From positions 102,030 to 166,029 of the forward strand of contig JAPLKG010000002.1 of NCBI GenBank assembly GCA_026388185.1: a stretch of 64,000 bases of DNA. Direction: 5' to 3'. This DNA comes from Candidatus Eisenbacteria bacterium. GTDB lineage: Bacteria; Eisenbacteria; RBG-16-71-46; JAFGJU01. Position 1 is the first letter of the stretch, and every line of letters starts with the position of its first letter. Below the pieces are notes generated by a model, which saw only the letters and a list, made by a program, of their open reading frames with translations, made no database searches and was not told the origin of the DNA. Positions 58,507 to 64,000 of this stretch are shown piece after piece. The position numbers and the translations under genes were made by a program.

Positions 58507-58945
58507 CTCTCAAAGTCCTCGTTTTCCCCCGGAGGATCGCTATTGCCGCAACGATCATCGCCCAGGAAATCACAACGGGTACGATGACGGGAGCCACCCA
58601 CGGGACGGGGATGAGGAACAAAACGTCCGCGCTAAGGAGGGACGGCGGCCACGCAATGAGCGCGTACAGCCACACGTAGTAGAAGATGTCCCAGATTCCA
58701 AAGCACCAGAGGAAATAGGCGAGCCGATCCCACCAGCCCTTTCTTGCCGAAAGAAGCGCCACGGAACAGAGCATCACGATTGTCGCAGCTTCCCTCCAAA
58801 TCTCAGTTGCATAGTAGAACCGCGGGAAGGACGTGAGAGAGACCGAGAATCCCTCGGGGTAGAAGAGCGCGCGCAAGTAGACCACCACGGCGGACTCCAC
58901 GAACGCCATCCCCACGGAGAAGAGAGCCAAGAAAAAGAGCCTCAT
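58484..58945 (-). CDS. Small polytopic membrane protein of unknown function
   Basis: The 153-residue protein has four membrane segments and many tryptophan and tyrosine residues (SFPRFYYATEIWREAA, WDRLAYFLWCFGIWDIFYY). I know no family function. Its ATG overlaps the lipoate ligase stop by four bases (ATGA), and its end overlaps the CPBP start, so three genes are coupled. Confidence 0.7.
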   Translation of the reverse strand: MRLFFLALFSVGMAFVESAVVVYLRALFYPEGFSVSLTSFPRFYYATEIWREAATIVMLCSVALLSARKGWWDRLAYFLWCFGIWDIFYYVWLYALIAWPPSLLSADVLFLIPVPWVAPVIVPVVISWAMIVAAIAILRGKTRTLRDGIRREA

Positions 58946-59847
58946 ACTGAGAACCTCACCTGGCCAACAACACCCTTCGCACCCTCTCTGTCCTGTCTCT
59001 TTGCTAGAGAGAGCGCGCCGGCCGATTCCTCTTCGTGGCGTGAGAGTCGTCCCTCTACGAGTGAAAGCCCGAAGCTCGTCTCGACTCCCCTCTTGAGCTC
59101 ACGCCCCACGATCTCAAGGCAGGGCACACTCGGGAGGAGGTCCGACAGACAGACGCTCCTCTCCCTCAACATGGACGCGCTCATACCTGACGCCCTCTCT
59201 CCCACGACCTCTACTATCCGAATGTGAGCGGCACCGGTCATCGTCGAGCCGTGGGAGAAAAAGGCCTCCCTCGTGAACTTGTGCGCACAACCCGCGAGCT
59301 TACGTCCTCCGACCGTCACCTCGTTTTCCGTTCCCGAACTGAAGCAAAGCGACGACCTGGCGACCCCGGAGGACCGGATGCCGTTCGGGGTGGCCCGACC
59401 CTCGACCGGCGAGCCCCGAGAAGATCGGACGCCGTTTGCGCCCCTCGGCTCCGCGGCCGGTGAAAGCGAGGCCTCCACACCGAGCGACCTCAGAGCCTCG
59501 CACAGAGCCGTACCCGTGAGCCTCGCAAACTGCCTGGGCCATTTTAGCGCCGGCAACGCCTCCTTCCTGAGGACAAGACAGTAGGTGACCTCTTCCCAAT
59601 GCAGGACCGCGCCACCGCCCGTAATCCTTTTCACCAAGTCTATGCCGAGCTCTCTGCACCTTACCGGGTCAACGAGATCAATCGACTGAGCGTAGCCCAG
59701 TGAAACGGCAGGAGGCGCCCACCCATACACTCGCAACGCTCCGTCAATCACTCCCCTCTCACATTCCCCCAGCAACACTTCGTCCACGGCCATGTTCGTG
59801 AACCCGTCAATAGCGCCCGACAGTATGTATCTAAGCCGCGGCGTCAT
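58942..59847 (-). CDS. Lipoate-protein ligase / octanoyltransferase family protein with low-complexity insert
   Basis: The protein has the biotin/lipoate ligase fold: RITGGGAVLHWEEVTYC near residue 73 and GGRKLAGCA with the conserved lysine. It could be a lipoate-protein ligase (LplA) or an octanoyltransferase (LipM). An insert of about 45 residues (roughly 125-170), rich in Arg, Ser and Gly, carries two imperfect copies of N-G-(V/I)-R-S-S and separates conserved parts. The ATG at 59847 follows GAGG. It heads a coupled unit with two membrane proteins. Confidence 0.82.
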   Translation of the reverse strand: MTPRLRYILSGAIDGFTNMAVDEVLLGECERGVIDGALRVYGWAPPAVSLGYAQSIDLVDPVRCRELGIDLVKRITGGGAVLHWEEVTYCLVLRKEALPALKWPRQFARLTGTALCEALRSLGVEASLSPAAEPRGANGVRSSRGSPVEGRATPNGIRSSGVARSSLCFSSGTENEVTVGGRKLAGCAHKFTREAFFSHGSTMTGAAHIRIVEVVGERASGMSASMLRERSVCLSDLLPSVPCLEIVGRELKRGVETSFGLSLVEGRLSRHEEESAGALSLAKRQDREGAKGVVGQVRFSV

Positions 59848-59973
59848 CACGGAACCTCACCTCTCGGGTGTGACCGTTACGCGGCGCGACCGGTCCCACA
59901 CCGGCAGGAACCACGAACGAACACTGACACCGAGTGTTTTGAAGCGGAGTCTTGAACGGTGAGCAGAAAGCGA

Positions 59974-60609
59974 TCAGTGCACAAACTGGATGCCGAACGA
60001 GGCCGGCCAGTCCATCAGCAAGAAAAGCAGTCTTCCCACGAGAAGAGAGATTCTGGCCATGACCGTGAAGCCGTAGGAAGCTCCAAACGATACCATGAGA
60101 AACCATATTCCTAATCTGGCAGAGGCACCCAGAACTCCTTTGTGTTCCTTCGAGAAAAAGAAATAGACGAGACTCACCAGCAGCCCCAAAACGATTATGC
60201 AATTACTGAACGTGTCGATCAGTGAGTGCGCGTGCAACGGAAGCATGTTTGCTTGAATCTGCGCCACGAGGTCCCCCTGGGCAAAGCCAATGATCGCGAG
60301 CCCGGAGAACGTGCCCACCATGAGCCCGATGGCCCACCTGCTCAGCCAATTGAAGCGATTCGTAAACCTGGAGAACATCAGCACGCCGAGAATGAAGGGA
60401 ATTATGAGCACGTACTGGCCGGCCGTGAGAGGTCTCCAGAGGTTGGGAAGAAAAACATTTTGATACTCTATGGCAACCACGTATCCGGCCGCTATGCCGA
60501 CGAAAACGTGCTCGGCGAACTTGTAAAAAGGATTGTCCTTGTACAGAAAGGTGAAGACCGCGATAGTGAGCACAGCCGCCATCGTAGTTAGAACAGGGAG
60601 TGGAAGCAA
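59974..60609 (-). CDS. Unidentified polytopic membrane protein (cluster gene 4)
   Basis: The 211-residue protein has about six membrane segments. Between the second and third it reads FAEHVFVGIAAGYVVAIEYQN. The start is TTG at 60609 with GAGGTAGCGG before it, five bases after the end of the next gene upstream. I do not recognise a function. The tight arrangement with the other three genes suggests a shared complex. Confidence 0.7.
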   Translation of the reverse strand: MLPLPVLTTMAAVLTIAVFTFLYKDNPFYKFAEHVFVGIAAGYVVAIEYQNVFLPNLWRPLTAGQYVLIIPFILGVLMFSRFTNRFNWLSRWAIGLMVGTFSGLAIIGFAQGDLVAQIQANMLPLHAHSLIDTFSNCIIVLGLLVSLVYFFFSKEHKGVLGASARLGIWFLMVSFGASYGFTVMARISLLVGRLLFLLMDWPASFGIQFVH

Positions 60610-60613
60610 ACCG

Positions 60614-61435
60614 CTACCTCCTCGTTAGTCTTCCCGTCTTCTTGAGGTAAAGATACATGACGTTGCCGAGCACAATGAATACGATGATGGCAAGGTGCCC
60701 CAGTGATTGAGCATCCATTCCCCTGGTGGCAGTGCCGGGGACACCCACAAGCTTCTCATATTCGGCGGCTCCAGCAAGCCCGCCCAACAGACCCACCAGC
60801 TGACCCGACTGATAGTACGGGTAGTACTCGGGCGCACTCACGGCCGTGCAACCGGCAGCGAGCGTTATATGATATCTCGACTGGACCTGCTGCACCCACT
60901 CTTTCGTGCCCGGATAACCGGCAGAAATGTTCACTATCATGTCGAGGTCGTTCAGGCTGCGCACACCCCTCATCACGGGTAACTGACCCACCGGGGTTCC
61001 GTAGAAATCCGCCGGGAAGGTCGCGGGAATGTCCCTTCCGAGGCTCACCATCACCACTTCGCGACCCTCTTTGTAGCCGAGGTTCACAAAATCAACGCCG
61101 TACTTCTTCCCGAATTTCTGCACGGCCACCTTGTTGAAAGCGTCCTCGAGCAGCGGCGGCCCGCCGGGCCAGAGACACGCACCGACCACCTTGACGTCGT
61201 GGGAAAAGAGGTGATAGAGAATGGCCATTGTCATTGGATGTAGCTCGGGCATCGAGCCGGGGTCGTAGTCGCAGGCAAAATATATCTTGGAGCCCGGAGG
61301 AATCTTATCAATCGCCTCGTAGGCGCCACTCACTTCTTTGCTCACCCTAATAGGCAGCCCCAGCGGCATAAGCAGAGGAAACAAGACTATTAGGAAAATG
61401 ACCAAGAATATGTATCTTCTGTCAAATCTTTCCAT
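60614..61435 (-). CDS. Membrane-anchored protein with large extracytoplasmic domain (cluster gene 3)
   Basis: One membrane helix at about 9-27 and a second near 247-265 frame a domain of about 215 residues. It contains YFACDYDPGSMPELHP, VVGACLWPGGPPLL and GCTAVSAPEYYPYYQSGQ, the last very rich in tyrosine and serine. No catalytic motif known to me is present. The ATG at 61435 follows the stop of cluster gene 2 by 51 bases. Confidence 0.7.
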   Translation of the reverse strand: MERFDRRYIFLVIFLIVLFPLLMPLGLPIRVSKEVSGAYEAIDKIPPGSKIYFACDYDPGSMPELHPMTMAILYHLFSHDVKVVGACLWPGGPPLLEDAFNKVAVQKFGKKYGVDFVNLGYKEGREVVMVSLGRDIPATFPADFYGTPVGQLPVMRGVRSLNDLDMIVNISAGYPGTKEWVQQVQSRYHITLAAGCTAVSAPEYYPYYQSGQLVGLLGGLAGAAEYEKLVGVPGTATRGMDAQSLGHLAIIVFIVLGNVMYLYLKKTGRLTRR

Positions 61436-61486
61436 CTATCGCCGCGATCCTCCGGTTCTACGACTCCTCACAGCAATGCACTCCCG

Positions 61487-62107
61487 CTACTCGCCGCCGA
61501 GATAGTTTCGTTCAATGCCCAGAATTATCTTTAGACCAGTCGATATTGCACCAAGCGCAGCCCCTATCATGATCGCCCGCTTGGCGGCCATTTGCGGCAC
61601 GTTCATGATCCAGTCGGAAACGACCGGGAGCTTGTCCCACATGAGCGTTCCCACGGGTACCCTTCCCAGCATGACGATTATTGCGGCTATCGCGAGCAGT
61701 GCCGCCTCGAAACTCCTCAGGCGGAATGCCCTGAACGCGGCAGACGCTATGAAAAACGCGAGCAACGAGAACATCGTCCCCTGCATGGGGGAATATGCGT
61801 AGAGGTAGAAATCGTTGAACAAGGTCCGTTCGCCCACGCCCCACACCACGCCGACGGTCAGCATGAAGACCAGACCCGCGAGCAAAGGAAACTGATAGAA
61901 CCAATCTCTCGAGCGTCTCGATATCTTCTGCCCGCTGATGCGAGCGATGTTCGCGACTCCGAGCACGTACGCGAACGCGACCACTATGATCGCCCACTGC
62001 TGGAGCGTTTCCCCAATGCTCGACACCAGGGGATGGGGGACGAAAAAGTCTATGACCATGAAGCATCCGAAAATGGCGGTGATTATCAACGGAACTTCGC
62101 GTTTCAA
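61487..62107 (-). CDS. Unidentified polytopic membrane protein (cluster gene 2)
   Basis: The 206-residue protein has about six membrane segments, a basic loop (SGQKISRRSRDWFYQF) and a short C-terminal soluble end. It starts with TTG at 62107 behind AGAGGTAGAAAG. No function is recognised. It follows the FN3/DUF6754 gene by about 120 bases. Confidence 0.7.
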   Translation of the reverse strand: MKREVPLIITAIFGCFMVIDFFVPHPLVSSIGETLQQWAIIVVAFAYVLGVANIARISGQKISRRSRDWFYQFPLLAGLVFMLTVGVVWGVGERTLFNDFYLYAYSPMQGTMFSLLAFFIASAAFRAFRLRSFEAALLAIAAIIVMLGRVPVGTLMWDKLPVVSDWIMNVPQMAAKRAIMIGAALGAISTGLKIILGIERNYLGGE

Positions 62108-62229
62108 CTTTCTACCTCTTCCATCACTCTTTCCGGCGACTGAGTCTCATCGCGCGGTCACAACCCACACGGTCCGGAGACTCGATTCGATCTGTGTGCC
62201 TATAACGTTCCCGATTTCGCGGTCCCCTC

Positions 62230-63417
62230 TCACTGAGCCGTAAACCACCGAGTGAAACTCGTCACGCCGAATGTCTCCAGGAGGGCTCCCGTGACCAACG
62301 CCAGCATGAGGAGAATTTTCATCCAATCCGAACCCTTGAGCGTTCCCACCAGCTTGGGATCTCCGGAAAGATAGGCAGTCGCGGCAAAGAACTCTTCGCC
62401 TATGAGCGTGTAGTCGCACGCGACCACGAAGAACGGAAGCTGATGTATGTTGGCCGTGCCGGCGATCTGGATGGCGCCCGTACTGAAGCCGGTCTCGGCC
62501 AGAATGAGCGATTCCGCAAAGAAAGAACCCAGGAACAGGTTGGCCGCCGGCTTCTCTCTCATCATTATGCCGTCCACGCCGGCCGTGAATGCGAATTGCT
62601 CGTCGGAAAGATAACGGATGTTGTTGGGATTGTAAGCCTCGGGATGTCCGGCGTCCAGATAGCCCTGCTTTACGGTCTCCTCGGCCAGGGGGACGACGAA
62701 CGCTCTGCACACCGGCACGATGAGAGGAGTCCCGTACCTTGCCACGAGCTTTGCCACGTTGCCCAAAATCACCATGCTGTAAATCGTCTGGATGTTGTTG
62801 ACGTCGTCGATTCCCGGCACGTAGAGAACGGGTTTACCCATCTCGGTGGCTCTTCCGACGGCCTCCTCAATTGCATCCAAACCGGCAATCTTTCTCACGA
62901 AAAGCGAGGCTCCCCTGCTTGCCCTTCTAATATAGATAAAGATCAAGATGAAAAACACGACAATCACGATGAGGATGTTGGCTCTGGCTGGATCAAACCA
63001 GTTGGATCTCGCGGACACGGGTCCCGTGAGGGCCGCGGCAGAATAGGCAAGGCCGTCGGTGAGTCTCACCCTGTAGAAATAGTTTCTGTTGTTTTCGACT
63101 CTATGATCCTGGCCCGAATCTGCGTCCACGTACGCCGTCGTTCCGGCGGGCACGCTGCCGACGAGCGAAAAGCCGGTGTCGCGACTTACCGAGCGAAAAA
63201 TCTCGTACGTTATCTTGGTTCTTTGAGCTCCTTGTTGGACGTCGGAGGGCGAGCGCTCCCAGGTGAGCGTGATGCTTCCGCCTCCGTCTCCGCGCGTGTC
63301 GCGAGAGACCAACCCCGATGGAGGTTCGAACCCATCACCCAAAGCACCCGGCGCCAAGCCGAGGCTCGAGAAGAAAAACGTGGCAGTGATAATGAGAAGG
63401 TGTCTAGACTTGTTCAC
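62230..63417 (-). CDS. FN3 and DUF6754 domain membrane protein (cluster gene 1)
   Basis: The 395-residue protein begins with a signal peptide. A fibronectin type III-like domain (about 33-130) is followed by one membrane helix (ANILIVIVVFFILIFIYI) and a conserved DUF6754-like region of about 200 residues. That region contains GKPVLYVPGIDDVNN and FFAESLILAETGFSTGA. A final membrane helix lies near the C-terminus. Recognition of DUF6754 is from memory of such sequences and should be checked. The start is GTG at 63417, 82 bases after the glycosyltransferase stop. Confidence 0.75.
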   Translation of the reverse strand: MNKSRHLLIITATFFFSSLGLAPGALGDGFEPPSGLVSRDTRGDGGGSITLTWERSPSDVQQGAQRTKITYEIFRSVSRDTGFSLVGSVPAGTTAYVDADSGQDHRVENNRNYFYRVRLTDGLAYSAAALTGPVSARSNWFDPARANILIVIVVFFILIFIYIRRASRGASLFVRKIAGLDAIEEAVGRATEMGKPVLYVPGIDDVNNIQTIYSMVILGNVAKLVARYGTPLIVPVCRAFVVPLAEETVKQGYLDAGHPEAYNPNNIRYLSDEQFAFTAGVDGIMMREKPAANLFLGSFFAESLILAETGFSTGAIQIAGTANIHQLPFFVVACDYTLIGEEFFAATAYLSGDPKLVGTLKGSDWMKILLMLALVTGALLETFGVTSFTRWFTAQ

Positions 63418-63499
63418 TATCCTTACCAGACTAACCCCTTAGACGCAACTTGAGCAACCGGAAGGATAGCAGACTCAGGAAGGACGTGTCAATACTCCG

Positions 63500-64000
63500 C
63501 TAATCCGTGTTTTCTCTCTTGGTCTTTCCCCAGTCTCTCTTACCGAGCAGGAAGTCAAACGTCGCCTTGACTCTGAAGAGGAGTGTAAGCTGGCGATAGC
63601 CGAAGTTCTCAAACATGGCAAGCGACATCAGGCGAGCAAAGTCGCCCCACTCCCTGTAGAGACCGAAGCTTGCCTCCTCCAGAAGCACGGCCAGCGTGGA
63701 AAGGAGCGTGCCTGCGGCCACTGCCAGAAGAAGAAACGTTATCAGGTAGGCAGTCGAGAGGATTCCAAGAAAATAAGCGAGAGGAATGAGGAAATATCCG
63801 ATGAGCTCGACCAGAGGCCCGAGCATCTCGAAGAAGAAATAATACGGCATACCCACGACGCCGACGCTTCCGTACCTCGGATTGAAGAGCATCCCCATGT
63901 TGCGGGTGAGAGATTGAATGAGACCCCTGTGCCACCTGTTCCTCTGGCGGGAAAGATTGCCCACGGAAACAGGGACTTCCGTCCAGCATATCGGGTCGGG
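63500..64000 (-). CDS. Processive family 2 glycosyltransferase (5' part missing)
   Basis: Only the C-terminal 166 residues are in the window. They start with the R/QxxRW acceptor motif (RQRNRWHRGL) of cellulose synthase- and NodC-like enzymes. Four membrane helices and a short cytoplasmic tail ending KRDWGKTKRENTD follow. The N-terminal catalytic domain lies beyond the right edge. It is probably a polysaccharide synthase. Its link to the four downstream membrane genes is inferred from strand and spacing only. Confidence 0.85.
   Translation of the reverse strand, partial: PDPICWTEVPVSVGNLSRQRNRWHRGLIQSLTRNMGMLFNPRYGSVGVVGMPYYFFFEMLGPLVELIGYFLIPLAYFLGILSTAYLITFLLLAVAAGTLLSTLAVLLEEASFGLYREWGDFARLMSLAMFENFGYRQLTLLFRVKATFDFLLGKRDWGKTKRENTD

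Follow-up and report, generated by a model that had tools for sequence, protein, structure and literature searches.

Members of the MutL/GlmL protein family (PF13941) are accessories of B12-dependent mutases (glutamate mutase, ornithine aminomutase), and one long-form member is encoded within the gene system described here. We examined a 64,000-nucleotide stretch of Candidatus Eisenbacteria DNA (contig JAPLKG010000002.1, positions 102,030 to 166,029; hereafter the window), near the end of which lie four consecutive genes for membrane proteins. These are named A, for the protein combining an FN3 domain with DUF6754, and B, C and D; P, S, M and E denote partner genes elsewhere in the same genome. 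Comparative sequence analysis gives good support for A–D as the predicted membrane module of a conserved eight-gene system, P-S-M-E-A-B-C-D, which is found across many mostly uncultured bacteria.

Resemblances of this system to described machineries are partial. M shares with MutL/GlmL proteins both family membership and an ASKHA-type DCGSTTTK motif, but is longer (~600 versus ~460 amino acids, aa) and linked to a membrane module, and no B12 mutase was identified among its recurrent neighbours. ECF-type transporters are alike by analogy only, in combining a shared soluble ATPase unit with several paralogous membrane modules per genome; the conserved set lacked an ABC ATPase match in Pfam scans, and its membrane parts are unrelated by sequence to those of ABC and ECF transporters. 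A barrel-sandwich domain of E resembles the N-termini of RnfC and NqrA, whereas A–D lack iron-sulphur (Fe-S) motifs and no Rnf or Nqr membrane subunits were matched. Likeness to Pga/Ica-type exopolysaccharide synthesis belongs to an inserted neighbouring module rather than to the conserved system. Protein A is a clear member of DUF6754 (PF20539). This Pfam entry covers just one domain of unknown function, and no entry was found for the proteins B, C, D, P, S or E encoded alongside it. A literature search with partial coverage of subscription journals returned no paper naming DUF6754 and none describing the eight-gene set.

A recurrent cassette of four membrane protein genes

The original prediction had reported four consecutive minus-strand membrane protein genes, three of them lacking a recognisable family, and all four open reading frames (ORFs) were confirmed at that place. 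Features are as follows (TM, transmembrane).

62230..63417, minus strand: gene A (395 aa), predicted to comprise an exported FN3 domain, one TM helix, a cytoplasmic DUF6754 domain (PF20539) and a C-terminal TM helix, from the PF20539 match, a structural model and lysine plus arginine (K+R) counts
63001..63336, minus strand: FN3 domain of A (residues 28-139), from a fold match to 7jgt
62245..63009, minus strand: DUF6754 domain of A (residues 137-391), from the Pfam match and conserved residues
61487..62107, minus strand: gene B (206 aa), predicted to span the membrane ~6 times, with no known family, from three paralogues in the genome and a 69-sequence alignment
60614..61435, minus strand: gene C (273 aa), a predicted TM helix, extracytoplasmic Rossmann-like domain and second TM helix, from the model and conserved residues
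59974..60609, minus strand: gene D (211 aa), polytopic, with no known family, from three paralogues in the genome and a 68-sequence alignment

The match of A to PF20539 (384.2 bits against a cut-off of 27) extends over model positions 2-256 of 257 and A residues 137-391, and the PGIDDVNN motif is present. The earlier descriptions of A as an exported FN3 protein with a DUF6754 region containing this motif, of another protein with a ~215-residue extracytoplasmic domain between two helices (C, ~212 residues in the model and placed outside by charge counts), and of two polytopic proteins of ~200 residues (B and D) were borne out likewise. Neither the Pfam scan of window proteins nor the family alignments gave B, C or D a match above cut-off. 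Sequence searches of Pfam and PDB found no relatives of C, and weak, inconsistent matches at most for B and D. An assignment of B to TMD0_ABC was rejected: 26 of 69 members matched (best E 8.7e-05), and B of the window reached 13.3 bits where the cut-off is 27.

The 2.62 Mb genome contains three PF20539 matches, each followed on the same strand by homologues of B, C and D that are 38-50% identical to those of the window, with the order A-B-C-D retained in all three cassettes. In a tree of concatenated cassettes, the three copies fall into three separate clades, each of which also holds copies from other lineages, indicating that the duplications are old and that the cassette has been inherited as a unit. 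Furthermore, a scan of named genomes identified 79 loci with DUF6754 genes, from genomes titled Eisenbacteria, Zixibacteria, WOR-3, Latescibacteria, Coatesbacteria, Fermentibacteria, Stahlbacteria, Edwardsbacteria, TA06, Acidobacteria and others. Nearly all loci with sufficient flanking sequence carry A-B-C-D consecutively on one strand, often as two or three tandem cassettes. Over all fetched loci, 121 complete cassettes were found in 94 loci, and the median spacing between successive genes was 12, 1 and 3 bases. Since the order recurs twice more within the genome and 121 times across these loci, the four-gene cluster is conserved far beyond chance; a gene-neighbourhood check, which the original prediction had proposed, thus found homologues kept together in a constant order in many phyla rather than scattered. 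Distance matrices of A–D are correlated (r 0.71-0.82), for which shared ancestry accounts in part. Homologues of A were not found among the plasmids and viral contigs searched.

Partner genes and their co-occurrence

Recurrent neighbours of the cassette were identified by all-against-all comparison of flanking ORFs, followed by the construction of profiles for all eight genes. Four partners lie upstream of A in the conserved order P-S-M-E-A-B-C-D: P (~150 residues), S (~120-140 aa), M (~605 aa) and E (~375 aa). By profile matches, P adjoins S in 30 of the 31 loci that contain P; S and M are adjacent in 42 loci, M and E in 53, and E and A in 48. Distant bacterial families possess the set too, sometimes in rearranged form, as ABCD-SME (L112, L115), ME-S-ABCD (L122) or S-ABCD-ME (L126), and linkage has therefore been retained where order has not.

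Within this phylum, A is found in 45 of 47 genomes, M in 44 and E in 43. Among 338 bacterial genomes from outside the phylum, a non-random choice related by descent whose shares are no estimate for all bacteria, 84 possess both A and E, 5 possess A alone, none possesses E alone, and 249 possess neither (the Fisher p-value for this co-occurrence is nominal). Presence of A, found in 89 of these genomes, agrees with that of C in 87, with two exceptions each way. Genomes usually have a single full-length E against 1-7 copies of A, for example one full-length E to 3-6 cassettes in the present genome (G000) and in G148 and G181, so that several membrane modules seem to share one soluble unit.

M matches PF13941 over the full model (423 bits) and carries the DCGSTTTK motif; in the present genome a copy lies on contig C8. 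Against the GlmL equivalog NF040745 it scored 226.6 bits, below the cut-off of 475, and it also fell well below the cut-off of the Or-4 equivalog. P and S gave no family match above cut-off in the Pfam scan. Comparison with PADLOC anti-phage defence models gave no match for A–E or M; a single match of S to Cmr5 (E 0.0039) is confined to its charged C-terminal tail.

E shows weak matches to barrel-sandwich, RnfC_N and KOW domains. Ten of 20 E family members matched RnfC_N (best E 4.9e-08), and NQRA_N is also resembled, raising the idea of a redox-driven ion pump or electron-transfer complex akin to Rnf or Nqr in which E would be the RnfC/NqrA-like subunit. Barrel-sandwich domains are widespread, however, and two E proteins scored singly against these models reached 17.7 and 16.6 bits, under the Pfam cut-off of 25.6. 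Also, C334 of A is the sole cysteine conserved at ≥85% in A–D, with none in B, C or D, so the membrane subunits have no Fe-S motif, and we consider such a pump very unlikely.

In several genomes, one ORF of 865-991 aa joins a second MutL paralogue to an E-like domain (L093-L098; genomes G011, G009, G004, G001 and G007). In two of these loci (L094, L098), a gene resembling the YjbQ/UPF0047 family adjoins the fused ORF. Elsewhere (L124, L125), a divergent E lies next to response-regulator-like genes with no recognisable A–D within ~9 kb, and A matches in the genomes concerned are weak.

Genes of one-carbon metabolism flank the system in part of its range. Several related genomes carry gcvT-gcvH-gcvPA-gcvPB directly upstream of P-S-M-E and lplA downstream of D, and an lplA neighbour cluster comprises 12 loci, mostly directly after D.

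58942..59850, minus strand (window): LplA-type lipoyl-protein ligase gene (PF21948, 80.6 bits), a frequent but not universal downstream neighbour
L088:5224-9758; L118:1612-5952; L100; L091: loci with gcv genes and P-S-M-E

This arrangement, together with membership of M in the MutL/GlmL family, could point to a one-carbon or B12 complex, in which the target of a GlmL-like M would be an enzyme dependent on cobalamin or lipoyl groups, and A–D would deliver or sense a related metabolite. ORF reading near the second cassette copy (L005:5456-7712) adds genes resembling a MetH-activation domain and an MttB-type methyltransferase, both cobalamin-linked. Distant genomes, however, keep the eight genes with no gcv, lplA or mutase nearby, and the score of M against GlmL stays under half of the cut-off. 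A one-carbon role is thus improbable in our estimate.

An inserted polysaccharide module

The cassette had originally been read as a possible membrane complex that assembles, exports or senses an envelope polymer, and a glycosyltransferase had been noted upstream. This gene lies 83 bases upstream of A on the same strand, and its motif, given as RxxRW, reads QRNRW (QxxRW). The window ends at the contig end, and its last 141 bases, in reverse complement, match exactly the last 141 bases of a second contig, near whose end P-S-M-E are located (window 63860-64000, contig C2; L092:8723-8863, contig C8). The two contigs are therefore adjacent, with the glycosyltransferase gene split between them. The joined order is gcvT-gcvH-gcvPA-gcvPB-P-S-M-E, polysaccharide deacetylase, TPR, HEAT, glycosyltransferase, A-B-C-D-lplA. 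The partners P, S, M and E, being on the other contig, were out of view of the original prediction.

63500..64000, minus strand: C-terminal part of the GT2 glycosyltransferase gene, cut by the contig end; context, judged to lie outside the system
L092:1632-8863: insertion between E and A, encoding a polysaccharide deacetylase (1161 aa), a TPR protein, a HEAT-repeat protein and a GT2 protein
63463..63492, minus strand: promoter-like site, TTGACA-18-TATCCT, 10/12 matches with TG before the second hexamer, between the glycosyltransferase stop codon and A

Sited within a deacetylase/TPR/HEAT/GT2 module, which we take to resemble Pga/Ica-type exopolysaccharide synthesis, the glycosyltransferase could in principle supply a polysaccharide for A–D to assemble, export or sense. 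Yet in the closest named relative, G013, the corresponding locus has none of the four inserted genes, A following directly after E. No glycosyltransferase occurs upstream of the genome's other two cassettes, and no such family is among the recurrent conserved neighbours. The promoter-like site between the two genes also counts against the polymer reading, with the reservation that the consensus scan gave 4 sites against 2.1 +/- 1.5 in shuffled sequence, which is not proof. We judge the glycosyltransferase to be a local insertion that is not part of the system. The insertion accounts for the linkage, which consequently provides no clue to function. Of the earlier reading, the core idea of one membrane complex with a gene order conserved in distant lineages agrees with the linkage found, the polymer link is not supported, and an envelope-polymer machine is highly improbable.

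Topology and proposed function

The predicted model of A (pLDDT 91.7) consists of an FN3 domain, a helix, an alpha/beta domain and a second helix. Its N-terminal part is firmly assigned, on the model, to the FN3 fold (best match 7jgt, Z 12.9, root-mean-square deviation (rmsd) 1.9 over 92 residues); FN3 proteins filled the match list of this search, so that its matches bear on FN3 rather than on DUF6754. The model of C (pLDDT 96.1) comprises a helix, an alpha/beta domain of ~212 residues and a second helix. By VIA-align its best match was MT0777 (1kjn; Z 10.0, rmsd 3.3 over 139 residues), followed by CODH/ACS subunits and dehydrogenases, a Rossmann-like series with none outstanding, and a Foldseek search with the C model returned nothing at E < 1e-3.

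Charge distribution around the helices informs sidedness. In 120 C proteins, mean K+R counts are 2.4 and 3.7 at the free ends against 1.0 and 1.4 on the domain side; because positive charge sits on the free-end side of both helices, the C domain is probably extracytoplasmic. In 84 A proteins, counts are 4.3 and 1.9 on the DUF6754 side against 1.8 and 0.6 on the other, and DUF6754, being on the positive side, is probably cytoplasmic. The soluble domains of A (DUF6754) and C thus likely lie on opposite sides of the membrane, and the alignments indicate B and D to be polytopic. The gene set, its order, co-occurrence, paralogues and likely sidedness, and also the M-E fusion, are well supported by sequence.

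DUF6754 contains many invariant polar residues (R175, R189, T191, E192, R287, E302, E308, Q317, D335, E341, E342, D364 and K367), C has invariant E64, D115, H247 and N258, and D a conserved KDNPFYKFAE motif. Conserved polar residues predicted to lie inside membrane helices are H247 and N258 of C, and T173 and R177 of D. The FN3 domain of A is optional: it was lost in the close relative G013 (L091:11240-12184), it is apparently also missing where distant genomes encode a short A (325, 292 and 258 aa; L111, L122, L126), and long A proteins of 909-943 aa (L107, L109, L110) carry a large additional N-terminal part. A and C share a TM-alpha/beta-TM organization and the same order of secondary structure, but a relationship as inverted paralogues is not claimed, given an hhalign probability of 11 and a profile alignment z of 3.4 at most against rotated profiles. 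Profile comparison likewise gave no support for a paralogous relationship between B and D.

External domains that look sensory, together with one conserved soluble domain in the cytoplasm and several paralogues per M-E pair, would also suit a sensor or signalling complex, where FN3 and the C domain would read an external cue and DUF6754 would regulate the M ATPase. The optional nature of FN3 speaks against this, as does the lack of any recurrent kinase, cyclase or regulator gene among conserved neighbours, and we regard a signalling role as quite unlikely.

Our tentative preference is for an ATPase-coupled inner-membrane machine in which one M-E pair drives one to seven A–D modules, with transport the most likely output; transport is preferred because the system combines four subunits in the membrane with soluble domains on either side of it, an ATPase-type unit common to several modules and conserved polar residues in membrane helices. 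We infer that A–D would physically form one hetero-oligomeric inner-membrane complex, and that the cytoplasmic DUF6754 of A would dock a soluble pair of M, an ASKHA-type ATPase, and E, a barrel-sandwich adaptor of several domains. On the outside, C would offer a Rossmann-like ligand-binding domain. M would hydrolyse ATP, with E relaying the conformational change to A, and the four-subunit membrane part would most likely use this change to carry a ligand through the membrane. A single M-E pair per genome could act with one to seven paralogous A–D modules, probably for different ligands.

Several points weigh against this proposal. Among the A-positive genomes outside the phylum, G053, G104, G123, G263 and G301 lack an M-type MutL. 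Two of these, G104 (a single contig, 96% complete) and G123, have A and C with neither E nor M, and G053 has A, C and E with no MutL match. That M hydrolyses ATP is an assumption based on its family; transport, or any other activity, is deduced from the genes; and B and D are described at the level of sequence. Furthermore, recurrent cassette neighbours include no substrate-linked gene beyond the glycine-cleavage genes and LplA of related phyla.

It is possible, though on balance unlikely, that the system represents a novel type of membrane machine powered by ATP, in which an ASKHA (MutL-type) motor takes the place of an ABC, P-type or rotary one, and a shared motor-adaptor pair energises several paralogous four-subunit modules with soluble domains on both sides. 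The ASKHA/MutL-type ATPase fold is not known to us as a driver of membrane transport, and would be added to such drivers if M powers the membrane module. The core subunits have no assigned family, and listing all the members (P, S, M, E and A–D) provides a defined eight-gene unit in place of one DUF. Given its strict association across many mostly uncultured phyla, its near-universal occurrence in this phylum, and its expansion to as many as seven cassettes, the system likely does something basic for the cells that carry it.

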